From Rhizobium halophilum (GTDB lineage: Bacteria > Pseudomonadota > Alphaproteobacteria > Rhizobiales > Rhizobiaceae), in the NCBI RefSeq assembly GCF_021648825.1, contig NZ_JAKJHS010000001.1, positions 434,001-498,000 on the forward strand: a DNA stretch of 64,000 nucleotides, in the 5' to 3' direction. Shown piece by piece: positions 5,925 through 23,689 of this stretch (positions are counted from its first letter, which is position 1; each line of letters starts with the position of its first letter). The notes under the pieces were generated by a model that ran no database searches, was not told the DNA's origin, and saw nothing but the letters and a program-made list of their open reading frames with translations. A program made the position numbers and the translations under genes.

Positions 5925-5950
5925 AACTTGAAGCCCGGTGCCTTGGTTCC
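5925..5950 (-). promoter_or_regulatory. EcfG/RpoE2-type promoter of the DUF3008 gene
   Basis: On the minus strand GGAAC (5946-5950) and GTT (5925-5927) are 18 bases apart, the spacing of alphaproteobacterial general-stress promoters. It faces the DUF3008 gene. Its -35 box is nine bases from that of the divergent promoter. Confidence 0.75.
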
Positions 5951-5958
5951 AGGCCCGG

Positions 5959-5984
5959 GGAACCAAGTGACGCACCCTGCCGTT
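5959..5984 (+). promoter_or_regulatory. EcfG/RpoE2-type promoter of the 86-residue gene
   Basis: GGAAC at 5959-5963 and GTT at 5982-5984, 18 bases apart, end 31 bases before the start at 6016. With the opposing -35 box it forms the palindrome GGTTCC-N8-GGAACC (5945-5964). Confidence 0.75.
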
Positions 5985-6015
5985 GGGACGCCACACATGA
6001 AGAAAGGACCTGATC

Positions 6016-6276
6016 ATGGATGCGAAGGACAAGACCGCCGACAGCACCAATGCCTCTGCCCGGTTCGAGCAGGAAGGCCGTGAGCGTGCGGAAGATGCTC
6101 TGCATGCCCAAGCCGATGTTACAAACCCAAGCGCGGTCAAGGAGGCCTCGCGTCTCGGTGGGGGCGATACCTATCTCGTCCAGTCCGACCTGGAGGACCT
6201 TGATGAACGGGAAGACATCGAGAACGACGACGGCAGCATCAGCGCATTGGCCAACGCCGACAATCCGGAGCGGTAA
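6016..6276 (+). CDS. Small acidic stress-type protein of unknown function (86 aa)
   Basis: An 86-residue, strongly acidic, soluble protein with a run rich in Asp and Glu in its last third (SDLEDLDEREDIENDD). It has no Cys, no membrane segment and no signal peptide, and it looks largely disordered. AAAGGA precedes the ATG. I do not recognise a family. It has an exact general-stress promoter upstream and an intrinsic terminator downstream (6301-6327), so it is a single-gene transcription unit. The composition recalls small hydrophilic stress proteins, but no function should be assigned. Confidence 0.72.
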   Translation: MDAKDKTADSTNASARFEQEGRERAEDALHAQADVTNPSAVKEASRLGGGDTYLVQSDLEDLDEREDIENDDGSISALANADNPER

Positions 6277-6300
6277 CCGAATCCAACAACAATCGCAGAT

Positions 6301-6327
6301 CGGCTCCCGAAAGGGAGCCGCTTTTCG
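6301..6327 (+). terminator. Intrinsic terminator after the 86-residue gene
   Basis: CGGCTCCC (6301-6308), a GAAA loop, GGGAGCCG (6313-6320), then CTTTTC. The perfect eight-base stem with a tetraloop and T-run sits 25 bases after the stop codon. Confidence 0.85.
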
Positions 6328-6334
6328 TTCAAGC

Positions 6335-6359
6335 GGAACCTTGCAAAGTGCCGGCAGTT
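6335..6359 (+). promoter_or_regulatory. EcfG/RpoE2-type promoter of the nucleotidyltransferase/phosphoesterase operon
   Basis: GGAAC at 6335-6339 and GTT at 6357-6359 with 17 bases between, 29 bases before the start at 6388 and just after a terminator. Confidence 0.75.
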
Positions 6360-6387
6360 CCCCCTGCCGCTGAACTTGGAGAGAACC

Positions 6388-7200
6388 ATGGTCACCGAGA
6401 CCGCAGCGCCTGAAGATCGTGCGCGGCGCGATAGAATGGACGCCATGCCACATATGCTTGCCAAAGCCTCACCGACGCTTGCCGACGCAGATGCCGAAGC
6501 CTTCGTGCAAGACGCGCTCTCGGAGCTGGCTCTCTGCGGCATTCCCTTCCTGCTCGCTGGAACCTATGCGGTGAGTGCCTATACCGGGATCTCACGTCCG
6601 ACGAAGGATCTCGACATCTTCTGCCGTGCCGGCGATTACGCTCGTATCCTCGCCCATTTCAAAGAGCGGGGTTACGACATAGAGGTCGAAGACGATCGCT
6701 GGCTTGGAAAAGTCATCAAGGGCAATCACTTTTTCGACGTCATCTTTGCCGGTTCCAATGGCACCATGCCCATTGGCGATGCGTGGTTCGAGAACGCGCG
6801 CCAGATGGAGCTGAACGGTCACCATGTCCGCATCATTGCTCCGACGGAACTCATCTGGTCCAAGTGCTTTGTCCAGTTGCGCCACCGGTATGACGGCGGA
6901 GACGTGGTGCATGTGATCCTGCGCGCCCATGACCAGATCGACTGGCAACGCCTGCTCAACCATATGGAGGTGCACTGGGAGGTGCTTCTGATCCACCTCC
7001 TCAACTTTCGTTGGATCTATCCCACCGAGCGCGACAAAGTTCCGGATTGGCTGCTGGACGAACTGCTCGATCGTCTGCAGGCGCAACGTCAACTGCCGCT
7101 GCCGCAGATGAAGATCTGCCGCGGACGCATGTTCAGCCGCGTTGATTTCGAGATCGACGTCAAGGAATGGGGTTTCGCTGACGTCGGCGGAGAAGGCTAG
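6388..7200 (+). CDS. Nucleotidyltransferase-fold protein of unknown substrate
   Basis: A 270-residue soluble protein. Near residues 55-80 it has LLAGTYAVSAYTGISRPTKD followed by LDIFC, which matches a nucleotidyltransferase core: a GT/GG-type motif and an hDxD metal motif (KDLDIF). A third carboxylate could be in the region DVIFAGSNG. Such proteins include antitoxin/toxin MNTs, lincosamide nucleotidyltransferases and uncharacterised families; this one is longer than minimal MNTs. The ATG at 6388 follows GGAGAG; a TTG four codons earlier lies within that site and was rejected. It is followed 38 bases later by a metallophosphoesterase gene, probably in one operon under a general-stress promoter. 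Confidence 0.75.
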   Translation: MVTETAAPEDRARRDRMDAMPHMLAKASPTLADADAEAFVQDALSELALCGIPFLLAGTYAVSAYTGISRPTKDLDIFCRAGDYARILAHFKERGYDIEVEDDRWLGKVIKGNHFFDVIFAGSNGTMPIGDAWFENARQMELNGHHVRIIAPTELIWSKCFVQLRHRYDGGDVVHVILRAHDQIDWQRLLNHMEVHWEVLLIHLLNFRWIYPTERDKVPDWLLDELLDRLQAQRQLPLPQMKICRGRMFSRVDFEIDVKEWGFADVGGEG

Positions 7201-7238
7201 CTCCGCGGCGACCAAGAAGAAGCAGAAGGAGGAGCGAA

Positions 7239-7994
7239 GTGACCGAGTCAGCAATTCCCGAAGGTGGCGCGAAGACGGAAAAGAGCAAAAAGCAGCGGGT
7301 AGCTGCGATGGGCGATCTCCATATCAGGGAACACGGGTCCCCCTCGTACAAGGACCTCTTTTCCGAGATCTCCCAGGCTGCGGATATCCTTGTTCTTGCA
7401 GGCGATCTCACCGACCTCGGCAAGCCCAAGGAAGCGGAACTGCTTGCCACAGACCTGCGCTCTTGCTCCATTCCCATCGTCGCTGTCTTGGGCAACCACG
7501 ACTACGAATGCGGTCACGTGGACGAGGTAAAGGAGATTTTCGAAGAGGCGGGCGTGCAACTGCTGGAAGGTCAGGCGGTCGAGATCAATGGCGTGGGGTT
7601 CGCCGGCGTCAAGGGTTTTGCCGGCGGCTTTGGCCGCTACATGCTCGGGTCGTTTGGCGAACCTGCCATCAAGGCGATGGTGGCGGAAAGCGTGGACGAA
7701 ACCATGCGACTGGAAAACGCGCTCCGTCAGGTAAGATCCGAACGGGCAATGGTGGTGCTTCATTACGCACCCATTCCTGAGACCCTGGCCGGCGAACCCC
7801 CTGAGATCTTCCCCTTCCTCGGTTCGTCGCGGCTGGCGGAAACGATTGACCGCTTCCCCGTAAGCGCCGTCGTCCATGGCCATGCACACCGAGGAACGTA
7901 TGAGGGGCGAACACCCGGCGGGGCGCCTGTCTACAACGTTGCTGCACACATCGAGAAGCCCACCGGCAAGCCCTACGCTTTGCTCGAACTCTGA
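7239..7994 (+). CDS. Calcineurin-like metallophosphoesterase
   Basis: A 251-residue cytosolic protein with the full metallophosphoesterase motif set. These are MGDLH near residue 25, LAGDLTDLG near 52, GNHDYE near 84, and VVHGHAHRG near 212; these residues coordinate two metals in the family. The substrate (phosphoester, nucleotide or nucleic acid) cannot be read from the sequence. The start is GTG at 7239, preceded by AAGGAGGAG. It lies directly after a nucleotidyltransferase-fold gene, which suggests a transfer/removal pair acting on a shared substrate; this is inference. About the first 20 residues are charged and rich in Lys and Glu. Confidence 0.88.
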   Translation: MTESAIPEGGAKTEKSKKQRVAAMGDLHIREHGSPSYKDLFSEISQAADILVLAGDLTDLGKPKEAELLATDLRSCSIPIVAVLGNHDYECGHVDEVKEIFEEAGVQLLEGQAVEINGVGFAGVKGFAGGFGRYMLGSFGEPAIKAMVAESVDETMRLENALRQVRSERAMVVLHYAPIPETLAGEPPEIFPFLGSSRLAETIDRFPVSAVVHGHAHRGTYEGRTPGGAPVYNVAAHIEKPTGKPYALLEL

Positions 7995-7999
7995 CGTGA

Positions 8000-8024
8000 G
8001 GAACCCGCGCCGCCGTCCTTTGTT
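8000..8024 (+). promoter_or_regulatory. EcfG/RpoE2-type promoter of the 47-residue gene
   Basis: GGAAC at 8000-8004 and GTT at 8022-8024 with 17 bases between, 24 bases before the start at 8048. It starts just after the phosphoesterase stop codon. Confidence 0.75.
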
Positions 8025-8047
8025 CTACATCATAAAGGAGACCATCG

Positions 8048-8191
8048 ATGACGCAGAACGCATCCCATCTCGATCAGGAACCCGCTGAAGGCTCGCGCAA
8101 AACTGTCGAGCACGAGCTTGCGCGGAATGACAAGAAAGCCAAGGAAAATGGCCGTGACGTGCGCAACAAAGAAAGCGACGAGAAACGCTAG
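8048..8191 (+). CDS. Very small hydrophilic protein (47 aa)
   Basis: A 47-residue, highly charged protein that begins MTQNASHLDQEPAEGSRKTV and ends in a run of Lys, Asp, Glu, Asn and Arg. It has no hydrophobic segment and no Cys. AAAGGAG lies eight bases before the ATG. It has its own exact general-stress promoter 24 bases upstream. I recognise no family. It resembles the small hydrophilic proteins common in rhizobial stress regulons. The start signal and promoter make it more than a chance frame. Confidence 0.7.
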   Translation: MTQNASHLDQEPAEGSRKTVEHELARNDKKAKENGRDVRNKESDEKR

Positions 8192-8298
8192 CCTATAGAA
8201 ACAGCACCGTGTTCCGGGGCGTCAGGTGAAGCAGGGATAGGCTGTTTCACCGGGCGAGGCACCTCGGATGCTCCCTCGCATCGCCGACGTCATGTGCG

Positions 8299-8323
8299 GG
8301 AACAAGCACCCGCTTTGGCCGTT
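8299..8323 (+). promoter_or_regulatory. EcfG/RpoE2-type promoter of treZ-treY
   Basis: GGAAC at 8299-8303 and GTT at 8321-8323 with 17 bases between, 30 bases before the treZ ATG. General-stress control of trehalose synthesis is well known in alphaproteobacteria. Confidence 0.75.
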
Positions 8324-8352
8324 TGAACGTCTCCGCATCAGGGGGCTTCCGC

Positions 8353-10179
8353 ATGACATCTGCAGTGAACACAAACGATGAGTTCCGCGCCTTTCCAAAG
8401 ACCTGGGGGGCGGAATTCGTAGCCTTAGGCGAAGTGCGCTTTCGGCTATGGGCACCGGGCCAGCAGGAGGTGGTCCTGCGTCTCGGGACCAGCGAAACTC
8501 CGATGAGCCGTAGTGACGACGGGTGGTTTGAACTTCTGGCCACGGGGGTTGCCGCCGGGACAGAATACGCCTTCGTACTGGCAGACGGCACTCCTATTCC
8601 CGATCCGGCCTCGCGCGGCCAGAAGGACGAGGTCAGTGGTCCGTCGCTCGTTATCGACCCGACGAACTATGAGTGGCGCAATGCGGGATGGCGGGGTCGC
8701 CCCTGGGAAGAAGCCGTTATTTACGAGATGCATGTTGGGACCTTCACCGACGAAGGCACCTTCCGATCGGCCATCCAGAAACTGCCGCATCTGGTGGAAC
8801 TCGGCATCACCGCCGTGGAAATCATGCCTGTGGCACAGTTCGCGGGCAATCGCGGCTGGGGCTATGACGGCGTCCTGCTGTATGCGCCGCACCGTGCTTA
8901 CGGCCAGCCGGAGGACATGAAAGCCTTCATCGACGCTGCCCATGGCCACGGCCTGATGGTCCTTCTCGATGTCGTCTACAATCATTTCGGCCCGGAAGGG
9001 AATTATCTGCCGGTGATCGCGCCGAGCTTCTTCCATCCTGAAAAAAAGACGCCCTGGGGCGCAGCAATCGCCTACGAAACCGATGCTGTCCGCCGCTTCT
9101 TCATCGAGAACGCGCTCTACTGGCTGGACGAATTCCAGCTCGATGGATTGCGATTCGATGCCATCGATCAGATCGGCGACGACAAATCGGGAACGCACAT
9201 TCTGATCGAGATCGCCGAGCGTATCCGCGCAGAGTTCGCTGAACGTCTCATCCACCTGACGACGGAGGACTCGCGCAACGTTACCTTCCTTCATGAGCGA
9301 AACGCCGAGGGAGGTATTCCGCGGTTCACGGCAGAGTGGAACGACGACCTGCACAACGCCATCCACGTTTATGCGACGGGAGAAACCGATGGTTACTATC
9401 GCGATTTCGCGGAAGAGACGGAGCGTCTTGTAGCCCGCACGTTTGCCGAAGGCTTCGCCTACCAGGGCGAGAAATCAAAGGTAAGCGGTGAGATCCGCGG
9501 CGTCGACAGCCGCAAGCAACCGCCCATCGCCTTCGTGGACTTCATCCAGAACCACGACCAGGTGGGCAACCGTGCCTTCGGCGATCGCCTGCTGTCGCTG
9601 GCAGGTCCCGAGAAGGTCAAGGCGCTGCTCTCTGCACTTCTGCTGTCCCCCCACATCCCTCTGATGTTCATGGGAGAGGAATACGGCGAAACCCGCCCCT
9701 TCCTGTTCTTCACGGACTTCCACGGCGAACTGGCAAAGGCCGTTCGAGAAGGCCGCAGGCGAGAGTTCGAGGGCCATGCCGGACACGGTCATGAGGATGA
9801 AGAAATCCCGGATCCCAATGCACAAAGCACCTTCAGCGACTGCAAGCTGGACTGGACCGAGCCCACCACCGACGAAGGGCGGGAGTGGATGGAACTCACG
9901 AAGCAGCTTTTGACACTACGAAAGGAAAGGATCGTCCCATTGATCCGCAATGCAAGGGAGGCTGGCGGAACGATTGTCGAGGCCGCGAACGGACTGGTGG
10001 CCGTCGCATGGGATTTTCCGGAGGGAAAACTTGGCATGGCGATCAATCTCGGCACTGAAGCCAGGCCGCTGCCCAACCTTCCGGGAGACCCGATCTACAG
10101 CTTCCCGCCGCATGGCTCGGGCGGCAGCTTGCCCGCTGGCTCCATCATCGTGACCGCCACGGCTGGAGGCAAGGCGTGA
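8353..10179 (+). CDS. treZ: Malto-oligosyltrehalose trehalohydrolase
   Basis: Cuts trehalose from the end of maltooligosyl-trehalose in the TreY/TreZ route from glycogen-type glucans. The 608-residue product has an N-terminal beta domain (about 1-95, with RFRLWAPGQQEVVLRLG), then a GH13 barrel. The latter shows VLLDVVYNHFGPEGNYL, the nucleophile motif DGLRFDAIDQI and the transition-state motif DFIQNHDQVGNR. The ATG at 8353 follows AGGGGG. It overlaps treY by four bases, and an exact general-stress promoter lies just upstream. Neither treX/glgX nor glycogen genes lie in this window, so the glucan supply comes from elsewhere. Confidence 0.96.
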   Translation: MTSAVNTNDEFRAFPKTWGAEFVALGEVRFRLWAPGQQEVVLRLGTSETPMSRSDDGWFELLATGVAAGTEYAFVLADGTPIPDPASRGQKDEVSGPSLVIDPTNYEWRNAGWRGRPWEEAVIYEMHVGTFTDEGTFRSAIQKLPHLVELGITAVEIMPVAQFAGNRGWGYDGVLLYAPHRAYGQPEDMKAFIDAAHGHGLMVLLDVVYNHFGPEGNYLPVIAPSFFHPEKKTPWGAAIAYETDAVRRFFIENALYWLDEFQLDGLRFDAIDQIGDDKSGTHILIEIAERIRAEFAERLIHLTTEDSRNVTFLHERNAEGGIPRFTAEWNDDLHNAIHVYATGETDGYYRDFAEETERLVARTFAEGFAYQGEKSKVSGEIRGVDSRKQPPIAFVDFIQNHDQVGNRAFGDRLLSLAGPEKVKALLSALLLSPHIPLMFMGEEYGETRPFLFFTDFHGELAKAVREGRRREFEGHAGHGHEDEEIPDPNAQSTFSDCKLDWTEPTTDEGREWMELTKQLLTLRKERIVPLIRNAREAGGTIVEAANGLVAVAWDFPEGKLGMAINLGTEARPLPNLPGDPIYSFPPHGSGGSLPAGSIIVTATAGGKA

Positions 10180-12707
10180 AGATCCCCTCCTCTACATATC
10201 GCCTTCAGTTCCGCAACGGCATGACCTTCGATGGTGCTGCCGCACTGGTTCCCTATTTGAAGCGTCTCGGCATCAGCCACCTTTACGCCTCCCCCATCTT
10301 TACCGCGACCAGCGGCTCGACCCACGGCTATGACGTAACGGATGCCAATGAGTTCGACCCAACGCTCGGTGGTCGCGAGGGGTTTGATCGTCTTTCGCGA
10401 GTGCTGCAAGAGCATGGCCTTGGCCTGATCCTCGACATCGTTCCGAACCACATGGCCGCCTCGCTGGAGAACCATTGGTGGCGGGACGTGGTGGAACACG
10501 GCCAGGCGAGCCGATTCTCACATTACTTCGACATCGACTGGACCCGCAGGCTGACGCTGCCCTTCCTTGGCGATACCTTCGACAAGGTTCTTGCGGACGG
10601 GGATCTGTCGATTCAGAAGGACCCAAAGACGGGAAAACCTTCTCTCGCCTATTACGAGACCTACTACCCGCTCTCCCCCGCCACCTATCAAGGACGGGAA
10701 GACGAGGTCTTGACTATCGCTGACCCGGCCGGAATCGCCGCCGTCCACGAGCAGCAGCCGTGGCGCCTGATGTCCTGGCGCGATGCACCGCGCGATCTCA
10801 GCTACCGTCGCTTCTTCGAGATTACGGGCCTCGTCGGCTTGCGGGTGGAGGATCCGGAGGTCTTCGATGCGGCCCACCGCACTGTGCTGGAGATGGTCAG
10901 AGATGGCCGCGTCGACGGCCTTCGTATCGACCACGTCGACGGGTTGGCTGATCCGAAGGGATATCTGGACCGGCTTCGCCAGGCAGTCGGTCCCGACACC
11001 TATATCGTCATCGAGAAGATACTGGGCGAAGGCGAACAACTGCCATCCGACTGGCCGGTCTCCGGGACCACCGGATACGAATTCATCGGCTCGCTTGCCA
11101 ATGTGCTGGTGGATGGCAGTAAGACCGAAACCTTGAGCAAAGCCTATGACGCCCTGACGGAGAAGACCGCGCAGCCGCTGGAAGCTCTGCGTGAAGCCAA
11201 GCTGCTGATGGCGAACAACAACTTTGAGGGCGAGGTTGCAACGCTGCGCAGGCTTGCTCTGAAGCTGCATGAAGCCTGTGGAACCGGACCCGCAGATGCA
11301 GATGCCGTGCACAATGCCCTTCGTGAACTCCTTGTCGCCTTCGATGTCTACCGGACCTATGGAACGGAGCGGGGAATGCCGCAGGAGGGGCAGGACCTGT
11401 TGGCAGCCGTTGTTCAGTCGGTGAAAGACGGGCCACATGCTCCAGATCCTGATGCACTCGGCTTCATTGAGCGCATCCTTCTCGGAAAGGTGCCGGCGCC
11501 ACAGGCGGGTATTGCTTCCCTCTTCCGCACTCGCTTCCAGCAGTTGACCGGACCGCTGATGGCAAAGTCCCTGGAAGACACGCTCTTCTTCCGTCACCAC
11601 CGCTTCCTCGCCTTGAACGAAGTCGGGAGCGAGGCGGAGCCGAAGGCGGCGTCCCTGGAACGCTTCCACGCGCAAATGCAGGTTCGTCTGCAGCGCCAGC
11701 CGCACGGACTGTCAGGCACATCCACGCATGACACCAAGCGCGGGGAGGACGCGAGGGCCCGGCTCTACGCGATCAGCGAGGCTCCCGATGTCTGGGCCGC
11801 GGCGGTTGAGCGCTGGCGCGCCATGAACCAAGTGAATATCGCTTCCCTGGATGATGGTCCGGCCCCTGAACCCTCTACCGAATGGATGCTCTACCAGGCA
11901 TTGGCGGGAGCCTGGCCTGCTGATCCATCGGTGAGTGATGCGAATGATTTGAAAGCTCTCGAAGAACGGTTCCTCGACTATGTCGAGAAAGCGCTTCGCG
12001 AGGCAAAGCAGCGCACCAGTTGGAACGACGTGAACGAAGCATACGAAAACGCGGTCAAATCTTACGCGAAGCGGCTTCTGTCCCTAGACAGCGAGTTTCT
12101 TTCCGATTTCCAGAACACGCTCGTGCCCTTCCTTCGCGCGGGACTTGTCAACGGGATTACCCAGACGCTGATCAAGATGACGGCTCCAGGGGTGCCGGAC
12201 ATCTACCAGGGCAGCGAGCGTCTTGACCTCAGCCTGGTCGATCCGGACAACCGCCGCCCCCCAGAGTTCGGGCTGCTGAAAAGCGCACTTGTCGACGATG
12301 GAGCACTACCTTCGGAAGAAGAGGACTGGCGCAACGGTCGGCTGAAGCAAAACATGATTAGGACGGTGCTGAACCTACGACAGAGGTTGCCGGATCTCTT
12401 TGCCTCAGGCAACTACATGCCGCTCAGCTCCCGTGGCGACCGCGCCCCCCACCTCGTGAGTTTTTCGCGCCAGAGCCAGGATGCAGCGGTGATCGTCATC
12501 GCGCCGCGCCTCGTCTTCAACGCCTTCCGCCAAGGCGGCTTGCCGGTGTCGGAGCCTTGGGCCCACACGGAAATCTTGCTGCCGCAGGAGCTTGGTGGAC
12601 GCAGCTACAGCGACATCTTCACGGGCAGGAGCTTCCAGCCGACCACCAGCCTCTCCGTCAGTTGGGCATTCGCAACTTACCCGTTCTCCGTGCTGGTCGC
12701 GCAGTAA
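10176..12707 (+). CDS. treY: Malto-oligosyltrehalose synthase
   Basis: Isomerises the reducing-end glucose linkage of maltodextrins from alpha-1,4 to alpha,alpha-1,1. The 843-residue length is typical. GH13_26 features include SHLYASPIFTATSGSTHGYD near residue 35, LILDIVPNHMA near 88, the nucleophile motif VDGLRIDHVDGLADP near 248, YIVIEKILGEGEQLP near 277, and GTSTHDTKRGED near 515. The start is GTG at 10176, overlapping the treZ stop. A strong hairpin follows the stop. TreY and TreZ act in sequence to release free trehalose, an osmo- and desiccation protectant. Confidence 0.96.
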   Translation: MKIPSSTYRLQFRNGMTFDGAAALVPYLKRLGISHLYASPIFTATSGSTHGYDVTDANEFDPTLGGREGFDRLSRVLQEHGLGLILDIVPNHMAASLENHWWRDVVEHGQASRFSHYFDIDWTRRLTLPFLGDTFDKVLADGDLSIQKDPKTGKPSLAYYETYYPLSPATYQGREDEVLTIADPAGIAAVHEQQPWRLMSWRDAPRDLSYRRFFEITGLVGLRVEDPEVFDAAHRTVLEMVRDGRVDGLRIDHVDGLADPKGYLDRLRQAVGPDTYIVIEKILGEGEQLPSDWPVSGTTGYEFIGSLANVLVDGSKTETLSKAYDALTEKTAQPLEALREAKLLMANNNFEGEVATLRRLALKLHEACGTGPADADAVHNALRELLVAFDVYRTYGTERGMPQEGQDLLAAVVQSVKDGPHAPDPDALGFIERILLGKVPAPQAGIASLFRTRFQQLTGPLMAKSLEDTLFFRHHRFLALNEVGSEAEPKAASLERFHAQMQVRLQRQPHGLSGTSTHDTKRGEDARARLYAISEAPDVWAAAVERWRAMNQVNIASLDDGPAPEPSTEWMLYQALAGAWPADPSVSDANDLKALEERFLDYVEKALREAKQRTSWNDVNEAYENAVKSYAKRLLSLDSEFLSDFQNTLVPFLRAGLVNGITQTLIKMTAPGVPDIYQGSERLDLSLVDPDNRRPPEFGLLKSALVDDGALPSEEEDWRNGRLKQNMIRTVLNLRQRLPDLFASGNYMPLSSRGDRAPHLVSFSRQSQDAAVIVIAPRLVFNAFRQGGLPVSEPWAHTEILLPQELGGRSYSDIFTGRSFQPTTSLSVSWAFATYPFSVLVAQ

Positions 12708-12719
12708 GCCATACAAGAA

Positions 12720-12757
12720 AAGGCCGCCAATCTCCCAATCGGCGGCCTTCGTTTCTC
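12720..12757. terminator. Bidirectional terminator between treY and the microprotein genes
   Basis: AAGGCCGCC (12720-12728) pairs with GGCGGCCTT (12741-12749). The nine-base stem has T-rich sequence on both sides, which suits the convergent genes. Confidence 0.8.
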
Positions 12758-12776
12758 CCTCCGAGAATCGTCTTTC

Positions 12777-12851
12777 TTAGCCGAGGCCAATAAACGACAG
12801 GATGGCAAGAACGATGACGACTGCTCCAACGAGCCAGATGATGCTGTTCAT
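12777..12851 (-). CDS. 24-residue single-span membrane microprotein (copy 2)
   Basis: A 25-codon frame with AAAGGAG seven bases before the ATG (12849-12851). The peptide is almost entirely one hydrophobic segment. It begins MNSIIWLVGAVVIVLAIL and ends in a Gly-Leu-Gly tail, so it should insert as one short membrane helix. Seventeen of its 24 residues match those of the upstream peptide at 12886-12960, which points to a tandem duplication. There is no separate promoter between them, so it is probably the second gene of a two-gene transcript. I know no assigned function; similar short peptides are usually labelled hypothetical in alphaproteobacteria. Confidence 0.75.
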   Translation of the reverse strand: MNSIIWLVGAVVIVLAILSFIGLG

Positions 12852-12885
12852 GTTTCTCTCCTTTTCTTTTGCGAGGAATTCGTGA

Positions 12886-12960: not shown

Positions 12961-12989
12961 GGTTTTCTCCTGTGTTTCTCGGCAGGTTG

Positions 12990-13014: not shown

Positions 13015-13028
13015 AGCCCCTCCGGGTT

Positions 13029-14701: not shown

Positions 14702-14710
14702 GGTGGCCGG

Positions 14711-16867: not shown

Positions 16868-16901
16868 GGCGTCCTCTTCTGCTTTGATGGGTTGCCCGCC
16901 C

Positions 16902-16927
16902 AACCCGAGCCCCCTGCGCTAGGTTCC
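16902..16927 (-). promoter_or_regulatory. EcfG/RpoE2-type promoter of the stress SDR
   Basis: Minus strand: GGAAC at 16923-16927 and GTT at 16902-16904 with 18 bases between, 35 bases before the SDR start. Confidence 0.72.
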
Positions 16928-16998
16928 CAAGGAATGTCAGATACCTGGCCCCAGCGGCCGCATCTTCTTCAATAACTTCAACAACAGTGTCTTCTTCC

Positions 16999-17023
16999 GG
17001 AACTCTCTGCTTCCGACCGTGTT
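16999..17023 (+). promoter_or_regulatory. EcfG/RpoE2-type promoter of the UDP-glucose dehydrogenase gene
   Basis: GGAAC at 16999-17003 and GTT at 17021-17023 with 17 bases between, 65 bases before the start codon. With the SDR promoter it forms another divergent general-stress control region. Confidence 0.75.
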
Positions 17024-17087
17024 TCTCGTTCTTCTGCAGCTGCCGGAGGGGCGGACTGCAACCGAATACCGGCGAAGGAGAGGCAGC

Positions 17088-18467
17088 ATGGACGTCATCA
17101 TGATCGGAGCGGGATATGTGGGATTGACCACCGGTGCTTGCCTTGCCGAACTTGGGCACAGGGTCACCTGCGTGGACAACGACGCTTCGAAGGTGGCGAG
17201 GCTGAAGCGGGCAGAGATACCGATCTACGAACCGGGCTTGTCGGAACTGATCGGCAAGCTTGTCTCTGCCGGTCGTCTATCCTTTTCGGATGATCTGGCA
17301 GAAGTTGCGCCTCATGCGCAGCTTGCCTTCATCGCGGTTGGCACCCCCTCTGCGCCCAATGGCGACATCGACCTCTCCTATGTGAAGAACGCTGCGGTTG
17401 GTCTTGCCCCGCTGCTGAAGCCGGATGCCGTGATCGTCATCAAGTCCACTGTCGTCGCCGGCACGGCGAAATTGGTACGCGAACTGGTGACAGAGGTGCG
17501 CGGCAGGGACGACGTTCATGTCGCCTCCAATCCGGAATTTCTGCGGGAAGGCTCCGCGATCCGGGACTTTCTTGAGGCGGATCGGATCGTAGCGGGAGCC
17601 GACGACCGTCGCGCGGCAGAGGTTCTGGCGCTCCTCTACGAGCCGCTACGGGCGAAGGGTGTTCCATTTGTCGCCACCAACACCACCAATGCGGAAATGA
17701 TCAAATATGCGGCCAATGCCTTTCTTGCCTTGAAGATCGGCTTCATCAACGAGGTCGCGGATCTTTGTGAGGCGGCAGGAGGAGACGTGGCCGCCGTTGC
17801 AGACGGCATTGGACTGGACCACCGGATCGGCCGCGCGTTCCTCAATGCCGGGCCTGGCTTCGGGGGCTCTTGCTTCCCGAAGGACACGCGCGCCTTTGCC
17901 GCCATCGGGCGCCGCTATGGGCAGCCGCAGTTGATTGTCGAGACGTTGATCGAGCGCAACGAGGCACGCAAGGCGGCGCTGTCGGATCGTATCCTTTCAG
18001 AACTTAAGGCAGGCAGCAGGCGCGTTGCCATCCTCGGCACGGCCTTCAAGGCGAATACGGACGATGTGCGCGACTCGGCTGCGCTTACGGTCATCCCGCT
18101 TCTGAAGAAGGCTGGCGCAAAGATCACCGCCCATGATCCGAAAGCCCGCCACGAGACGGAACGGCATCTGAAAGGAATTTCGTGGGCCGACTGCCCCTAT
18201 GAAGCCGCCACCAATGCCGATGCAGTGGTAATCCTGACCGAATGGGAGGAATATGCAGCGCTCGACCTGGCACGCCTGGCGAAGGCGATGGCGGGCCGCA
18301 GTCTTCTTGATTTTCGCAATCTCTTTGCGGCCGAAGAGGTTAACCGCCATGGCCTGAGATACATAGCTACCGGCAGGCGCCCCGCCGCCCCCATTTCCAG
18401 CATCCACAGCCAACCGACCGGTGCCGGAAGCGGCGATTGGAGCGAGATCGCAGCTGCTCCGGCGTGA
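17088..18467 (+). CDS. ugd: UDP-glucose 6-dehydrogenase
   Basis: Oxidises UDP-glucose to UDP-glucuronate, a precursor for surface polysaccharides. The 459-residue product has MIGAGYVGLTTGACLAELGH at its N-terminus, the motif IAVGTPSAPNGDIDLS, NPEFLREGSAI near residue 150, and the catalytic-cysteine motif GFGGSCFPKDTRAF near 262. The ATG at 17088 with GGAGAGG upstream fits the family start; a longer frame from 17019 does not. A general-stress promoter lies upstream and a strong terminator follows. Its isolation from polysaccharide genes, and its stress promoter, suggest a dedicated envelope-stress copy. Confidence 0.93.
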   Translation: MDVIMIGAGYVGLTTGACLAELGHRVTCVDNDASKVARLKRAEIPIYEPGLSELIGKLVSAGRLSFSDDLAEVAPHAQLAFIAVGTPSAPNGDIDLSYVKNAAVGLAPLLKPDAVIVIKSTVVAGTAKLVRELVTEVRGRDDVHVASNPEFLREGSAIRDFLEADRIVAGADDRRAAEVLALLYEPLRAKGVPFVATNTTNAEMIKYAANAFLALKIGFINEVADLCEAAGGDVAAVADGIGLDHRIGRAFLNAGPGFGGSCFPKDTRAFAAIGRRYGQPQLIVETLIERNEARKAALSDRILSELKAGSRRVAILGTAFKANTDDVRDSAALTVIPLLKKAGAKITAHDPKARHETERHLKGISWADCPYEAATNADAVVILTEWEEYAALDLARLAKAMAGRSLLDFRNLFAAEEVNRHGLRYIATGRRPAAPISSIHSQPTGAGSGDWSEIAAAPA

Positions 18468-18487
18468 CATTCTGCAACAAGCACAAG

Positions 18488-18521
18488 AAAAGGGCGCGGC
18501 CGGGGCCGCGCCCTTTTCTTT
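18488..18521 (+). terminator. Intrinsic terminator after ugd
   Basis: AAAAGGGCGCGGCC (18488-18501) pairs perfectly with GGCCGCGCCCTTTT (18504-18517) around two bases, so a four-G loop with 13 pairs is likely. It is followed by CTTT. The A/T-rich ends let it act in both directions. Confidence 0.88.
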
Positions 18522-18536
18522 GACAGGGACGCTCGT

Positions 18537-18788
18537 TCACGCGCCGGGGGTTACCAAGCCGTCGCCCCCACGCAGGCGCCGTAACTGGTCTACGATCCTG
18601 AGCGAGCCGGACGCACGCGCGGCGGAAAAGTCGCTGCTCTTGGAAAGGATGCGCAGCATGTCCTCCGCCTCGTCGGCCGAAATGGTGCCGCGTGCCGCCA
18701 ACCCGTCGATGAGGAGCAAAAGTGCTCCCTCCACGGCAAGCGCTCTACGGTGAGCTTCCCGGTCGTTGTTATTTTCTACATCAAGCAT
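18537..18788 (-). CDS. Small helical protein of unknown function (83 aa)
   Basis: An 83-residue protein, begins MLDVENNNDREAHRRALAVE, with a helical core that includes ALLLLIDGLAARGTISADEA. No signal peptide, and the hydrophobic run is short for a membrane span. GGGAG precedes the ATG at 18786-18788. A weak general-stress promoter (GGAAC at 18836-18840, ATT instead of GTT 17 bases on) lies upstream. I recognise no family; it shows a loose resemblance to the 94-residue protein at 14417-14701. Confidence 0.62.
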   Translation of the reverse strand: MLDVENNNDREAHRRALAVEGALLLLIDGLAARGTISADEAEDMLRILSKSSDFSAARASGSLRIVDQLRRLRGGDGLVTPGA

Positions 18789-18815
18789 GTCAGGCTCCCT
18801 GCTGGCTACCTGACG

Positions 18816-18840
18816 AATTAGTTCAGCCGATAAAAGTTCC
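18816..18840 (-). promoter_or_regulatory. Degenerate EcfG-type promoter of the 83-residue gene
   Basis: Minus strand GGAAC at 18836-18840. The -10 region has ATT after 17 bases, not GTT. Position and orientation fit, the sequence is only partly consensus. Confidence 0.35.
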
Positions 18841-18842
18841 GA

Positions 18843-19277
18843 CTATTCCTCAGGTTGCAAAGGTTCCGGCGCCGCCGCCGAGGGATTCTGCGGGTGACTT
18901 GAACGATCCCACTTCCCCTGCTCTGCCTTGTAGAAATACTGGCTCGCAACGAGCCATCCCTTGAGGGGTCGAAGAGGCGGAATGCAGGTCAGCAGCATGA
19001 AAGGCAGAGAGGTCAACAGGTGAACCCAGAACGGCGGCTGGAACGCCACTTCGATCCAGACTGCCAGCGCAACGCTCGGGACGCAGGCGAAGCAGATGAC
19101 GAAGAAGGCGGGACCATCGGCCGGATCGGCAAAGGAGTAATCGAGGCCGCAGACTTCGCAGTTGGGACGCAGCTTCAGGAAGCCATCGAACAGATGACCT
19201 TGGCCGCAACGCGGGCAGCGACCTCGCACGCCTGTGCTGTAGGGTGACAGGGGGGCCCATTGGGCGTCAGATGTCAT
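18843..19277 (-). CDS. DUF983 family membrane protein
   Basis: A 144-residue protein that begins with a zinc-ribbon-like part, CPRCGQGHLFDGFLKLRPNC followed by EVCGLDY (two Cys pairs), which is the DUF983 mark. Two membrane segments follow (about 55-80 and 84-103). An aromatic stretch (LVASQYFYKAEQGKW) closes the domain. The role of DUF983 is unknown. I use the ATG at 19275-19277 with GGAAGGA upstream; a longer frame from 19412 is not family-like. A GGAAAC-N17-GTT sequence upstream is one base longer than the stress -35 box and was not called. Confidence 0.85.
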   Translation of the reverse strand: MTSDAQWAPLSPYSTGVRGRCPRCGQGHLFDGFLKLRPNCEVCGLDYSFADPADGPAFFVICFACVPSVALAVWIEVAFQPPFWVHLLTSLPFMLLTCIPPLRPLKGWLVASQYFYKAEQGKWDRSSHPQNPSAAAPEPLQPEE

Positions 19278-19384
19278 GTCCAGTCCTTCCAAGATTCCTG
19301 GATGCGATACCGTCCAACCGGCACCGCCATCAAGTGTTTCCGCCAGCACGCGGCAATGTGACCCGCTTCCGATGACACTGAAGA

Positions 19385-19409
19385 GGAACCTTTGACCTCG
19401 CTTCCTGTT
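19385..19409 (+). promoter_or_regulatory. EcfG/RpoE2-type promoter of an SDR gene
   Basis: GGAAC at 19385-19389 and GTT at 19407-19409 with 17 bases between, 57 bases before the start at 19466. Confidence 0.72.
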
Positions 19410-19465
19410 CAACGCAGCAAAAGAGATCCTCCACTCAACCCGCCCCGCATCCTCAGGAGACGAGC

Positions 19466-20269
19466 ATGAACCCCGTGGACACAGGAAATGGATTGGCCGT
19501 TGTCACAGGCGCATCAACCGGCATCGGTTTTGAACTCGCAAAATGTGCCGCGCAAGATGGCTATGATCTCGCCATTGCCGCCGACGAACCCCGTATTCAG
19601 GAGGCCGCGGCCAAGCTGAGGGAATTCGGCGTTCAGGTAGAAGCGATGCAGGTTGATCTTGCAACCCGCGAAGGTGTCCGCCGTTTCGTCGACGGCATCT
19701 CCTCCTTGGGCCGACCCATCGATCTGCTGATGGCGAACGCCGGCCGAGGGCTGGGCCATGGCTTTCTGGACGAGGATCCGGATGACGCTCAACGGGTTGT
19801 GGATACGAACATCACCGGGACCATCCACCTCGTGCACGCCATTGGCAACCGCATGCGCACGCGCGGATCCGGCCGCATCCTTTTTACCGGCTCGATTGCC
19901 GGCTTCATGCCCGGCGCCTTTCAGGCGATCTACAATGGCACCAAAGCCTTCATCAACAGCTTCTCCTTTGCTCTTCGGGAGGAACTGAAAGGCAGCGGCA
20001 TAACCGTCACCTGTCTGATGCCGGGGCCGACGGAAACCGAGTTTTTTGAACGGGCGGACCTTCTGGACACTGCGGTCGGCCAGGGCAAGAAGGATGATCC
20101 GGCTTTCGTGGCGAAGGTCGGCTTCAAGGCGATGATGAACGGCGAAGGTGATGTCGTTGCCGGAATGAAAAACAAGATGATGTCGGCAGCCGCCAACGTC
20201 ACGCCAGCAGCTGTGCTGGCGGGCCAGCATCGAAAGATGGCGGAGCCAGGCAGCGGGAAATCCAATTGA
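19466..20269 (+). CDS. Short-chain dehydrogenase/reductase (classical)
   Basis: A 267-residue oxidoreductase with the cofactor motif AVVTGASTGIGFELAKCAAQ near residues 10-29, a NAG-type motif (LMANAGRG) near 90, and Ser-Tyr-Lys residues (FTGSIAGFMPGAFQAIYNGTK) near 135-155. Since the second beta-strand ends in an acidic or Ala-Asp segment (IAADEPRIQ), NAD may be preferred; this is uncertain. The substrate is unknown. AGGAGACG precedes the ATG and a stress promoter lies upstream. It differs clearly from the SDR at 16010. Confidence 0.87.
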   Translation: MNPVDTGNGLAVVTGASTGIGFELAKCAAQDGYDLAIAADEPRIQEAAAKLREFGVQVEAMQVDLATREGVRRFVDGISSLGRPIDLLMANAGRGLGHGFLDEDPDDAQRVVDTNITGTIHLVHAIGNRMRTRGSGRILFTGSIAGFMPGAFQAIYNGTKAFINSFSFALREELKGSGITVTCLMPGPTETEFFERADLLDTAVGQGKKDDPAFVAKVGFKAMMNGEGDVVAGMKNKMMSAAANVTPAAVLAGQHRKMAEPGSGKSN

Positions 20270-20303
20270 CGAGCAAGGAACTCGTGTCGAGCCTCTCCAT
20301 CCG

Positions 20304-20588
20304 TCAGTCGTCGCCGAACAGCCAGTCACGATAAACACGCCGGGAAACCAGCCTCAGGCTGCGATCGGGCTGGATCACATAGCGTTCCACGACCCGTTGC
20401 CCGAACTCGTTGCGGAATTCGTGAGAGATTGGGCTCCCGATCGGCGCCTTGGTCAGCCGGGTGCGCGGCTGGCCACCGTAGGTGATGCTGCCCGGGATGG
20501 GCTCAAGTGCCGGCGACGTCGTGGCGACGTATGTCGTACAAGCGCTCAGAAGGAGCGCCAGAGCGGAAATCGATGCCATCTTCTTCAT
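20304..20588 (-). CDS. Small lipoprotein of unknown function
   Basis: A 94-residue protein with a lipoprotein signal: MKKMASISALALLLSACTTY, with Cys17 after the lipobox LSA. The mature part is about 78 residues, contains EFRNEFGQRVVERYVIQPD and looks beta-rich. I recognise no family. The ATG at 20586-20588 is the only reading that gives this signal; a frame to 20636 would bury it. An exact stress promoter lies 31 bases upstream, in the short spacer after the flavoprotein gene that ends at 20647. Confidence 0.8.
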   Translation of the reverse strand: MKKMASISALALLLSACTTYVATTSPALEPIPGSITYGGQPRTRLTKAPIGSPISHEFRNEFGQRVVERYVIQPDRSLRLVSRRVYRDWLFGDD

Positions 20589-20618
20589 CGTTGACCTTGC
20601 CTTTCCCTGTCGCTGCAG

Positions 20619-20643
20619 AACGGCAGCCGGCCTCACGGGTTCC
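20619..20643 (-). promoter_or_regulatory. EcfG/RpoE2-type promoter of the small lipoprotein gene
   Basis: Minus strand: GGAAC at 20639-20643 and GTT at 20619-20621 with 17 bases between, squeezed into the 58-base spacer before the lipoprotein start. Confidence 0.75.
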
Positions 20644-20646
20644 CGA

Positions 20647-21588
20647 TCACGCCGTCCCGCTGCGCAGCCGGTTGTGGACCGTCACGGCCGCGATCTCGCC
20701 GTGGGCCATGGCCACGCCCAGCTGGTTGAGGCCTGTAACCACATCTCCGGCGGCAAAGCAGCCGTCAATATTCGTCTCCTGGTGCGATCCCGTAGTAATC
20801 CGGCCGTCCTCCTCCAGACGAACGCCCAGTTGCGCCGCCAGTTGCGAGCGGGGCCGGACACCGAGGGCAGTATAGAGCACGATGCCGTGAAGTTGCTGCC
20901 CCCCCTCCAACTGGAGATCGACATCTCCGGTCCCTGTTTTGGAAACATTCCCTAGCGGTGCCGAAAGGACATCAATATCGTCGTCCTGCAGTGAGGCAGC
21001 CGTCGCATCATCCCACTTGGGCGCCTGCCCCAGCGTAAGGATGAAGATCGAGCTCGTAAACGTCTTGAGAAAGCGGGCTTCCGCGACGGCGCGCATACTG
21101 GCCCCGATGACCGCAACCGGGCGGCCAGCAATCTCGTAGCCGTCGCAGATCGGACAGATCCGCAGATAGCCCTCCGAAACAAGATCGTAGGGATCGGGCA
21201 GCGGCGGCAGGTTATCCTCCAACCCGGTCGCCAGGATGATGTTTTGGCCGGCAACGGCACGACCGCTGATCTCCGCCTGGAAGAAACCGTCCTGCGTCTT
21301 CTCAAGCTTCGTTACCGCACCATCGACCACCGGAACCCCGAGTTCCTGCATCTGCTCGCGCATGCGAGCGAGCAGATCGCGCCCCTTCACGCCCCCGGGG
21401 AACCCGGGGTGATTATAGGACCGTGGGATGAGTCTGGCCCGGCTGCGCCCGCCGTCCACCAGCAAGGCCTTCCGGTTCATCCGTGCTAAGTAGATCGCGG
21501 CCGTCATGCCGCCGGGACCTCCGCCGATCACGAGACAATCAAAGGGAACCCGAGAGAGTGTTCCGTTGGGCGATGTGGCTACAGACAC
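20647..21588 (-). CDS. Thioredoxin-reductase-like FAD/NAD(P) oxidoreductase
   Basis: A 313-residue flavoprotein with the FAD motif [19 protein letters not shown] near residues 18-36 and [12 protein letters not shown] near 113. The redox motif CPICDGYE is near 144-151. The NAD(P) domain motif [15 protein letters not shown] and the closing [21 protein letters not shown] are also present. CPIC replaces the CATC/CAVC of typical TrxB, so the partner may not be standard thioredoxin. The start is GTG at 21588 after GGAGAAGGA. An exact stress promoter lies 31 bases upstream. The symbol trxB is not used because the main trxB is probably elsewhere. Confidence 0.85.
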
Positions 21589-21618
21589 GTCCTTCTCCGC
21601 ATTTTCAGCAAGCGCGTT

Positions 21619-21643
21619 AACTCCGCCGCCGGCTCGGTGTTCC
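21619..21643 (-). promoter_or_regulatory. EcfG/RpoE2-type promoter of the flavoprotein gene
   Basis: Minus strand: GGAAC at 21639-21643 and GTT at 21619-21621 with 17 bases between, 30 bases before the GTG start. Confidence 0.75.
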
Positions 21644-21789
21644 GAGGCGCACGTGCTGCACAGTCATGGAGACGCACGTCAGCGGCCACCATGGCATGGT
21701 CGTCCTGCACGGGCGGACAATGGTTATAGCAGTCGCTGCAACTTCCGCCCTCAGCACCCGTTGAACGTGTCAAAATAAAAGGAATGGGA

Positions 21790-22275
21790 ATGGCGAGGAA
21801 GAGTGCCGGGTTGCTGATCTTTCGCCACACGGGCAATCGCCGCGCCGAGGTTCTGCTCGGCCATCCCGGCGGCCCCTTCTGGCACCGCAAGGACGCAGGC
21901 GCCTGGACAATCCCCAAAGGGCTCGTTGGAGCGGACGAGGATCCGCTTCTTGCAGCACAGCGGGAAACGACAGAAGAACTTGGCCTGAAGATCTGCGGCG
22001 AATTCCACTGGCTCGGCAGCTACACGCAGCCGGGCGGCAAGCTGGTTCTGGTCTGGGCTGTGGAGCCATAGGCAGCGATCGATACAGCAGCCATCGTCAG
22101 CAATGGCTTTGAAATGGAATGGCCGCCCCGCTCCGGGCGCTTGCAAAGCTTCCCGGAGATCGACCGTGCAGCCTGGTTTCCGCTGGACGAAGCGCGCCAC
22201 AAAATCCTCAAGGGACAGGCTCCCATGCTCGATGATCTGGAGACGTGGCTAGCGGCATCTGGCGGGAGCAAGTGA
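21790..22275 (+). pseudogene. NUDIX hydrolase interrupted by an in-frame TAG
   Basis: The first 93 codons encode a NUDIX protein with a complete Nudix box (residues 44-66: G-x5-E-x7-RE-x2-EE-x-G, within GLVGADEDPLLAAQRETTEE). A TAG at 22069-22071 then ends the frame after LVWAVEP. Reading on in the same frame gives 67 more codons that fit the C-terminal half of the family: FEMEWPPRSGR, FPEIDRAAWFPLDEARHKIL and PMLDDLE, then TGA at 22273-22275. So a gene of about 160 codons carries one premature stop and no frameshift. The ATG at 21790 suits the AAGGA site; an ATG at 21784 is too close. A sequencing error, recent loss or read-through are all possible. Confidence 0.82.
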
Positions 22276-22393
22276 AGGCGCTGTTCAGCCTGACAGAACG
22301 TTGTTTTCCGTCGCGGATGAAAATTAGGGCATTCTGCCTATTGCTGCGGCAGAAGCTCTGCTAATCGGAAGCTCCCTTCACGCGGTCTTCCCA

Positions 22394-23560
22394 ATGTCGT
22401 TTTTCCGTCGCCTCAACCCCCTGATCGTCCCTGTCAGCCCGGCCGAGCGCATCCGTGCCTCGCTGGGGGCGCTGGTAGGGATCTTGCTTACGGGGCTGCT
22501 GAGCGAGATGCTCCTGGGCGCCGGCAGCAGCTTCCCGTTGCTGATCGCGCCCATGGGCGCGTCGGCGGTCCTTCTCTTTGCCGCTCCGAGCAGCCCGCTG
22601 GCGCAACCCTGGTCGGTCCTCGGCGGCAACCTTGTGTCGGCGACGATTGGAGTCACCTGTGCTCTCCTGATCGACGATCCCGTGTTGGCCGCAAGTACCG
22701 CCATCGCCTCCTCGATCGCTTGCATGCTGCTGCTCAACTGCCTGCACCCGCCAAGCGGCGCAGTCGCACTCACCGCCGTCCTTGCCGGCAGCGCGATCCA
22801 TGATTGGGGCTACTGGTTCGTGCTGTCCCCTGTGGGTCTCAATTCCGTGCTGCTGCTTGTCAGCGCCTATGCCTTCAACAATGCTACCGGGCGGCGGTAT
22901 CCTCATCTTGCGCCGTCGGGTGCAACCAACACACACGGCACCGCCGATGCCCTGCCCTCACAACGTATCGGCGTGGTCCCCGGCGATATCCGGGCGGTGC
23001 TGGAACAGTATGACGAAGTGGTCAACATCAGCCTGGATGACCTGGATGCCCTGCTCCATCAGGCGCAGATTCGCGCCTATGAGCGCCGTTCGGGTGAGAG
23101 TACCTGCGGCGAGATCATGTCCCGAGACGTTCTCACGGTCGAGCCAGAGACCCCTATCAAGGCGGCATGGCGATTGCTGGCACAGGCCCACATCAAGGCA
23201 CTCCCGGTGGTAACGGTCGACCGCGAGCTTGTCGGGATCGTGACCCAGACCGACTTCATGCGGATGTCCATGCTCAACGAGCGCGGCGGCTTGAGCCTGC
23301 GCATCCAGGCAGGGCAACTCGTTCGCCGCAGCGGCGTGCCGCGCACCGTCGAAGACATCATGACGCGTCGCGTCCAATCCGCCCTTCCGGAAACAATGAT
23401 CGCCAAGCTGGTGCCGCCAATGGCAGACATGGGGCTGCATCACATGCCGGTCGTCGACCACGACAACCATGTCGTCGGCATCATCACACAATCGGACCTC
23501 ATCGCCGCCCTGTTCCAGAGCGGGCGTGGTACTGCCACGAGCCTTGCCGAAGCGGTCTGA
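22394..23560 (+). CDS. HPP-family membrane protein with tandem CBS domains
   Basis: A 388-residue protein. The N-terminal half (about 20-170) is an HPP domain with four to five membrane spans and the family's motifs FPLLIAPMGASAVLLFAAPS and NCLHPPSGAVALTAVLAG (the HPP triplet). After a linker come two CBS domains (about 233-290 and 320-375), IMSRDVLTVEPETPIKAAWR and IMTRRVQSALPETMIAKLV. CBS pairs usually bind adenine nucleotides, and HPP proteins have been linked to nitrite or other small-ion transport, so a regulated transporter is a reasonable guess. No strong ribosome-binding site or stress promoter is visible upstream. Confidence 0.88.
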   Translation: MSFFRRLNPLIVPVSPAERIRASLGALVGILLTGLLSEMLLGAGSSFPLLIAPMGASAVLLFAAPSSPLAQPWSVLGGNLVSATIGVTCALLIDDPVLAASTAIASSIACMLLLNCLHPPSGAVALTAVLAGSAIHDWGYWFVLSPVGLNSVLLLVSAYAFNNATGRRYPHLAPSGATNTHGTADALPSQRIGVVPGDIRAVLEQYDEVVNISLDDLDALLHQAQIRAYERRSGESTCGEIMSRDVLTVEPETPIKAAWRLLAQAHIKALPVVTVDRELVGIVTQTDFMRMSMLNERGGLSLRIQAGQLVRRSGVPRTVEDIMTRRVQSALPETMIAKLVPPMADMGLHHMPVVDHDNHVVGIITQSDLIAALFQSGRGTATSLAEAV

Positions 23561-23664
23561 TCCCAGACACCACTGCGGTAAGCGCGAGAGCATGGCGGCC
23601 GCCCGACCTGCGCAAAATGTCCGTATTCCGGGGTGACGGAGGCCTTGCCCCTCCCACGATAAGC

Positions 23665-23689
23665 GGAACCAACTGCGCCGCCGGCTGTT
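23665..23689 (+). promoter_or_regulatory. EcfG/RpoE2-type promoter of the DUF421 gene
   Basis: GGAAC at 23665-23669 and GTT at 23687-23689 with 17 bases between. Transcription would begin near 23695, which rules out upstream starts for the DUF421 protein and supports the TTG at 23718. Confidence 0.75.

Follow-up and report, generated by a model that had tools for sequence, protein, structure and literature searches.

Introduction

In the general stress response governed by the sigma factor EcfG (RpoE2), PhyR draws NepR off EcfG and so sets it free, a release step that is established for this system elsewhere. The promoters of EcfG/RpoE2 (ECF15) regulons carry the consensus GGAAC-N16/17-cGTT, or a close form of it, in Sinorhizobium meliloti, Rhizobium etli, Sphingomonas and Sphingopyxis (PMC6599016, PMC7083833, PMC3892343, PMC6180224). 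Here we analyse a 64,000-nucleotide stretch of Rhizobium halophilum DNA (the window; contig NZ_JAKJHS010000001.1, positions 434,001 to 498,000), in which a block at 5925-23689 is crowded with sites of this type. The block has the same consensus as the described regulons and overlaps with them in kinds of target, which include trehalose genes and, in Sphingomonas, Ku and topoisomerase IB. It also recalls the RpoE2 regulon of S. meliloti, in which CBS, short-chain dehydrogenase (SDR) and hypothetical proteins are among the targets. It differs from the four accounts in that they list targets gene by gene and, in the portions available, describe no islands of separately promoted units; for Sphingomonas Fr1 a single EcfG-dependent trehalose gene cluster is reported.

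Two further parallels are instructive. The phyR-nepR-ecfG core locus likewise clusters general-stress genes with EcfG-type sites, but these genes are regulators, whereas the block holds effector genes. At a higher level of organisation, synteny segments or uber-operons are an established idea (PMC4873041), comprising neighbouring operons, co-directional or divergent, that are held together in evolution as the block appears to be; in the block, however, most units each retain a copy of the same type of sigma-factor promoter. The titles and abstract openings of the literature searched describe no islands of EcfG target units; the regulon is a familiar one, found here in a supra-operonic layout.

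Results

The window contains 16 exact strand matches to GGAAC-N17/18-GTT, of which 14 lie inside 5925-23689 at 13 places, the matches at 6335 (plus strand) and 6337 (minus) being a single palindromic place. The remaining two, at 38880 and 48534, are both on the minus strand. Dinucleotide shuffling of the window (100 shuffles) gave a mean of only 2.81 matches (s.d. 1.69, largest 8). Positions 5601-24400 hold 14 sites against 2 for the control pattern, compared with 2 against 1 for positions 25001-64000, and the adjoining stretches have 1 against 1 (L037) and 0 against 3 (L038). Genome-wide there are 315 exact matches to the pattern and 287 to its reversed control, so that the loose density elsewhere approaches what chance would give, the block stands out as a local excess and a lone match means little. 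The stricter pattern GGAACMW-N15/16-GTT occurs 105 times against 49, an excess that points to about 50-60 genuine strict-form sites, and nine of the 105 lie in the block where 0.43 would be expected (P about 7e-10). On the 916,787-base contig (C1) the 13 merged places fall within 18 kb, whereas the largest number in 20,000 uniform simulations was 10. Clustering in the block is therefore well above the genome average. The first-pass annotation of this DNA had listed thirteen exact sites between 5.9 and 23.7 kb, which the pattern scan bears out, and had staked its case on a comparison of density with the rest of the genome, which goes in its favour, the level elsewhere being near that of the control. 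It also reported one further site, at 48.5 kb; that site is present, but the match at 38880-38905 had been overlooked.

The sites are placed as promoters should be. Of the called heads of transcription units, 12 of 16 inside the block, but 0 of 32 outside it, have a site no more than 200 bases away. Units were delimited with a home-made gene caller that misses proteins of fewer than 35 residues, so that a unit of two 24-residue microproteins is absent from the first count, the nearer of these starting, by eye, 30 bases from its site. The isolated site at 48534-48559 (minus), 26 bases upstream of an Hva1_TUDOR gene (48284-48508), is absent from the second because this gene lies within 50 bases of a called gene on the same strand and hence is not a head. 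Between GTT and the called start there are 24-68 bases, on the correct strand; the exception is a thioredoxin-reductase-like (TrxR-like) gene, whose site is 112 bases from the ATG as called, a figure that would fall to 31 with the in-frame GTG at 21588. The earlier statement that every site lies 24-65 bases before a gene start thus holds for orientation and, with the range slightly widened, for distance, but not for the TrxR-like gene as called.

Spacing is equally specific. In a scan of 1.33 Mb, block included, spacers of 17 and 18 bases gave 300 and 162 matches, whereas all other spacings from 10 to 29 gave 21 to 48; the base c preceding GTT is not invariant in the block sites. When the 60 bases preceding each of the 13 sites are compared, the mean similarity is 26% and that of the best pair 47%. 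The sites therefore do not look like copies of a single repeat, and the idea of repeat-borne promoters was rejected, flanks and spacers being dissimilar. Bidirectional palindromic promoters (GGAAC-N17/18-GTTCC) were also considered, CC following 62 of 462 strand matches, equivalent to 31 palindromic places. This idea was dropped, as CC is only the fifth commonest following dinucleotide in the genus set (30 of 306).

Could the block be co-expressed by read-through or a shared chromatin state, that is, by facilitated co-transcription, with the sites secondary? Synteny segments in E. coli and B. subtilis are indeed reported to be co-expressed whether or not they share a sigma or transcription factor (PMC4873041). 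In the block, however, most called heads have a site of their own, many of these sites are conserved, and the units lie on both strands; we consider this explanation quite improbable.

Conservation of the sites was examined before orthologous genes. Loci around the orthologue of the block's nucleotidyltransferase gene were taken, 37 of 45 from the same genus and 3 of 6 from other genera (40 in total), leaving out tblastn matches under half coverage (microproteins exempt) and, for SDR1, SDR2, the TrxR-like flavoprotein, NDH-2 and ugd, those below 45% identity. The 37 same-genus loci contain 306 sites against 40 controls. Over the 40 loci a site precedes 35 of 37 orthologues of the DUF3008 gene (control 2/37), all 34 of the gene for an 86-residue protein (control 1/34) and all 33 of treZ, as well as the nucleotidyltransferase gene in 30 of 40; for NDH-2 and SDR1 the count is 18/18 each. 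Complete conservation is also seen, in few loci each, for a 47-residue protein (4/4), ugd (3/3), the TrxR-like gene (3/3) and SDR2 (3/3, control 1/3). The DUF421 site is found in the single orthologue among the 40 loci and, in a search of the genus, in 7 of 8 matching genomes, three of the seven having no detected nucleotidyltransferase gene. At least one microprotein copy is present in 28 of the 40 loci, with a site no more than 160 bases from the match in 18 of 28 (first microprotein as query) or 19 of 28 (second), the two queries often matching the same copy.

Genes inside or beside these units behave differently. An own site is found before 0/40 orthologues of the phosphoesterase gene that follows the nucleotidyltransferase, 3/37 of treY, 3/21 of the 94-residue gene behind NDH-2 and 0/3 of CYP152, and before 0/23 of an 83-residue gene, 0/1 NUDIX, 0/2 HPP, 0/13 mnmA and 0/26 of the neighbouring gene g007; the outer gene g008 has a site in 9/23. 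Controls before the same genes number 0-2 each. The locus of P. pelagicum (L040) is syntenic across the block and has 15 strand matches, and the cluster is retained in the 37 same-genus loci and in genomes G122 and G127. The nucleotidyltransferase gene itself occurs in 46 of 57 genomes of the genus and in 8 of 121 in a family sample, our own genome included.

These data also dispose of chance or base composition, by which a short and frequent pattern would have produced a random run that happened to be noticed. The near equality of the loose genome-wide counts is what chance would give, and the match at 38880-38905 (minus), which lies within an open reading frame (ORF) on the same strand (38523-39497), is probably just such an accident. 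Yet not one of the 20,000 simulations reached 13 places in 18 kb, the excess recurs in the same-genus loci, only two spacings stand out, the flanks are unlike, and a random pattern would not persist before orthologous heads; we give this explanation practically no credence.

We conclude that the block sites are very probably sigma-EcfG promoters, judging by sequence features: they have the pattern and spacing of ECF15 promoters, stand before unit starts, are conserved before orthologous heads and absent before inner genes, and the cognate regulators are present. This agrees with the first-pass annotation. The genes for PhyR, NepR and EcfG lie at 686-688 kb of contig C1, with sites in the locus; NepR scores above the cut-off for PF18557, and its neighbours are a PhyR-domain protein and an ECF sigma factor with r2 and r4 domains. 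Strain Rhizobium sp. NT-26 is one that we take to be a Pseudorhizobium. Its RpoE2 activates a GGAACN16-17cgTT promoter in vivo, with peak activity in stationary phase, and also drives it in E. coli (PMC6011840).

Which sigma factor reads the block? A second EcfG-like sigma, of 168 residues and 43% identical to EcfG, is encoded at 722.7 kb of C1 (L032:7700-8206), within a neighbouring and denser site cluster, and this factor rather than the canonical EcfG could be the main controller of the island. Besides its position and identity, the partly distinct regulon of EcfG2 in R. etli (PMC3892343) speaks for this; in S. meliloti, on the other hand, overexpression of RpoE5, a second ECF15 factor, yielded a single putative target in the portion of the account available (PMC6180224). 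We regard control chiefly by the second sigma as improbable. About 5 kb from its gene is a 59-residue ORF (L032:13062-13241) that is NepR-like by eye and has no Pfam match.

The block is not the only cluster in the genome. The denser one, at 722.6-742.6 kb of C1, has 16 merged places in 18 kb. Among its genes are those for Ku, LigD, topoisomerase IB and an HWE kinase, to which inspection by eye adds glycogen genes and a ferritin-like protein. Elsewhere, sites also occur at 760-768 kb of C1 and at 133-162 kb of contig C2. Clusters of at least five strict sites per 26 kb number two on C1 of our genome (G000), three in G122, two in G127 and three in G105, which belongs to another genus; in G015 no cluster of at least five was found among 34 listed sites. 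In each genome with clusters the largest one is bigger than any in 5,000 simulations. Clusters of 5-6 lack significance on their own, and the nucleotidyltransferase clusters of G122 and G127, with seven sites each, equal the simulated maximum of 7. In both of these genomes the nucleotidyltransferase gene is inside a cluster and a second site cluster follows 0.3-0.45 Mb further on, as in ours.

A wider sample was obtained by centring on treY in 20 of 37 other-genus genomes that have this gene. These loci hold 93 sites against 25 controls, unevenly spread from 16 against 1 (G105) to 0 against 3 (G083, L159). Gene content was read for five of them: in G105 treY is accompanied by a second EcfG-like sigma and a NepR-like ORF, and in the other four by Ku, glycogen enzymes, topoisomerase IB or a phospholipase-D (PLD) protein. 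The homologues of the companions in these four sit, in our genome, in its other islands.

Plasmids extend the picture. The nucleotidyltransferase is found on 127 plasmid records, 66 from Sinorhizobium and 47 from Rhizobium, and it stays together with the phosphoesterase on plasmids of Rhizobium, Sinorhizobium, Ensifer, Sphingobium and Azospirillum. Stretches around the pair have 14 sites against 0 controls in S. meliloti, 11 against 2 in R. etli p42b, 14 against 2 in Rhizobium sp. NXC14 and 15 against 5 in E. canadensis, where the control is fairly high; the Sphingobium and Azospirillum stretches have 1 against 1 each. One site of the S. meliloti cluster (L203, 25095-25119) shares 37 of 39 bases with the published RpoE2-dependent SMb20074 promoter (PMC6180224), so that one cluster member has experimental support. 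The pair is nevertheless ruled out as a universal cluster anchor, for there is no cluster in the Sphingobium and Azospirillum stretches or in the three other-genus loci L144-L146.

The two SDR genes illustrate how membership may change. In the stretches around the pair, copies of SDR1 (79% identical) are present for S. meliloti and for E. canadensis, and copies of SDR2 (69-72%) for R. etli and NXC14. In a wider set, an exact own site precedes 5 of 6 in-island copies of SDR2 against 1 of 20 outside, although L190 and L191 (about 61% to SDR2) are perhaps not true orthologues. Of the 20 outside loci 16 were read, with 25 sites against 2 controls; in 12 of them, one cut by a contig end, SDR2 follows a gene for a 389-residue alcohol dehydrogenase, and in eight of these 12 an EcfG site stands before that leader. 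Entry into the island need not, therefore, have created the regulation of SDR2, and the idea that SDR2 gained its promoter on entry was dropped, since it is often already in the regulon behind the site-bearing alcohol dehydrogenase.

In view of these results the earlier reading of the sites as EcfG-type and clustered stands, but its view of the cluster as an unusual, lone oddity does not: a denser cluster lies on the same contig, G122 and G127 of the genus and G105 of another also have clusters, and on plasmids of S. meliloti and R. etli the nucleotidyltransferase-phosphoesterase pair is surrounded by sites.

Is the island then simply ordinary synteny, an inherited neighbourhood in which early regulon genes were chance neighbours and the clustering has no meaning of its own? 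The island is largely common to the genus, guests without sites reside in it, and three other-genus nucleotidyltransferase loci have no cluster, all as this view would have it. It sits less well with site clusters of differing composition in other genera and on plasmids, and with a shared gene pool (SDR1, SDR2, PLD, UPF0104-like and DUF892-like genes) that recurs near the pair or near treY in differing combinations. Of the competing explanations ordinary synteny is the least improbable, but we judge it unlikely.

The units of the block, each headed by an exact match, are as follows, reading from the left. A minus-strand site (5925-5950) precedes the gene for a 61-residue DUF3008 protein (5711-5896, minus; Pfam PF11450, E 1.3e-29), and a plus-strand site (5959-5984) precedes that for the acidic 86-residue protein (6016-6276, plus; isoelectric point 4.1), which has no Pfam or NCBIfam match. 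The palindromic site (6335-6359, plus; reverse match 6337-6361) heads the operon of the 270-residue nucleotidyltransferase (6388-7200, plus; NTP_transf_5), which gave no match at E<=1 in a PDB sequence search, and the 251-residue calcineurin-like metallophosphoesterase (7239-7994, plus). The sites at 8000-8024 and 8299-8323 (both plus) precede, respectively, the gene for a charged 47-residue protein identified by the gene caller (8048-8191, plus) and the operon of treZ (malto-oligosyltrehalose trehalohydrolase; 8365-10179, plus; TIGR02402) and treY (malto-oligosyltrehalose synthase; 10176-12707, plus; TIGR02401), both above cut-off.

Next, a minus-strand site (12990-13014) serves two 24-residue membrane microproteins found by eye, one at 12886-12960 (minus), with homologues by tblastn, and a second, similar one at 12777-12851 (minus). 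The tandem (12777-12960) consists of MNSIIWLVGAVVIVLAILSFIGLG and a close copy behind the single EcfG site. The site at 13029-13053 (plus) heads the operon of an NDH-2-like NAD(P)H dehydrogenase (13098-14420, plus; Pyr_redox_2 and NDH2_C), the 94-residue protein and a CYP152-family fatty-acid peroxygenase (14711-15994, plus; NF053744, E 8e-130, below the curated cut-off; PDB 1izo, E 6e-101). SDR1 (16010-16867, minus) follows with its site at 16902-16927 (minus), then the ugd-like UDP-glucose dehydrogenase gene (17088-18467, plus; site 16999-17023, plus) and SDR2 (19466-20269, plus; site 19385-19409, plus). A putative lipoprotein of 94 residues (20304-20588, minus; lipobox by eye, no Pfam or NCBIfam match) has its site at 20619-20643 (minus), the TrxR-like flavoprotein (20647-21588, minus; Pyr_redox_2) at 21619-21643 (minus), and a YetF/DUF421 membrane protein of uncertain start (23757-24203, plus) at 23665-23689 (plus). 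Pfam and NCBIfam support the gene identities given in the first-pass annotation: DUF3008, nucleotidyltransferase, metallophosphoesterase, TreZ, TreY, NDH-2-like protein, CYP152, both SDRs, UDP-glucose dehydrogenase, Pyr_redox_2 and YetF/DUF421.

Several neighbouring features may be recorded. The NUDIX hydrolase gene at 21790-22275 (plus) has an in-frame TAG at 22069-22071 with the frame open beyond and is, by eye, likely a nonsense-interrupted gene. A tRNA-Met gene (25162-25238, minus) adjoins the block on its right, ahead of mnmA (named by eye), and is a possible insertion point; no integrase was recognised among 20 proteins in a general family scan, no dedicated integrase search having been made. 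G+C is 0.59-0.62 in the block and 0.59-0.64 across the window. At 51196-51862 (minus) a PIN-domain/AbrB-type toxin-antitoxin-like pair lies, by eye, between ruvA-like and ruvC-like genes.

Discussion

The block is, with high confidence, a supra-operonic island of the EcfG general stress response, whose units, each with its own promoter, would switch on together and whose membership appears to change over time. About twelve separate transcription units lie side by side, each very probably read from its own sigma-EcfG promoter; under stress PhyR would remove NepR from EcfG and all units would be activated at once. Their products would serve trehalose synthesis (TreZY), redox reactions (NDH-2, CYP152, the SDRs and the TrxR-like protein) and envelope or sugar functions (Ugd, DUF421 and the lipoprotein), together with small stress proteins. 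The island core is inherited genus-wide, and over longer times regulon members are met in islands of this kind in differing combinations, either with their own EcfG site or behind a site-bearing operon leader. The sequences show the excess of sites, their specific spacing and conserved placement, the three regulator genes and the recurrence of clusters. That each promoter is active, that PhyR and NepR exert control in this strain, that genes have moved from one island to another and why they cluster is what we infer.

A number of observations weigh against this interpretation. Four of the 16 called heads in the block (ORFs 18537, minus; 19020, plus; the NUDIX gene at 21790, plus; and an HPP-CBS gene at 22394, plus) have no exact site, and only 10 of 22 orthologues of the lipoprotein gene retain theirs (control 2/22). 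The genomes compared share ancestry, and counts of sites before orthologues are not independent events. The three other-genus nucleotidyltransferase loci (L144-L146; genomes G018, G035 and G042) have 8 sites against 3 in 60 kb and no cluster. The second EcfG-like sigma may read some or all of the block sites, and in NT-26 the motif precedes 469 genes and is too generic according to its authors (PMC6011840). Finally, in relatives' islands only 18 of 148 guest unit heads, those with no homologue in the window, have a site, a count in which, wherever mnmA was undetected, the guest zone took in all the remainder of the 20-kb stretch and may overshoot the island. The island does not, therefore, simply convert its guests or admit only EcfG genes, and the idea of a filter by which all new residents are regulon members was abandoned.

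Why should separately promoted units stay together? One tentative and rather doubtful proposal is that the EcfG regulon of Rhizobiaceae consists of a few self-assembling islands, whose members repeatedly relocate beside one another in differing combinations and keep or regain EcfG control, because proximity itself aids co-activation, through local supply of sigma factor and RNA polymerase or shared supercoiling, or aids co-transfer.

The conserved promoter context makes the nucleotidyltransferase-phosphoesterase pair and the DUF3008, 86-residue, 47-residue, 24-residue and 94-residue proteins testable stress genes, and gives the uncharacterised genes of the block a likely role in surviving stress. 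Since regulator and site are known, and island content varies between genera, the block offers a clear natural case in which to ask why separately promoted units stay together.

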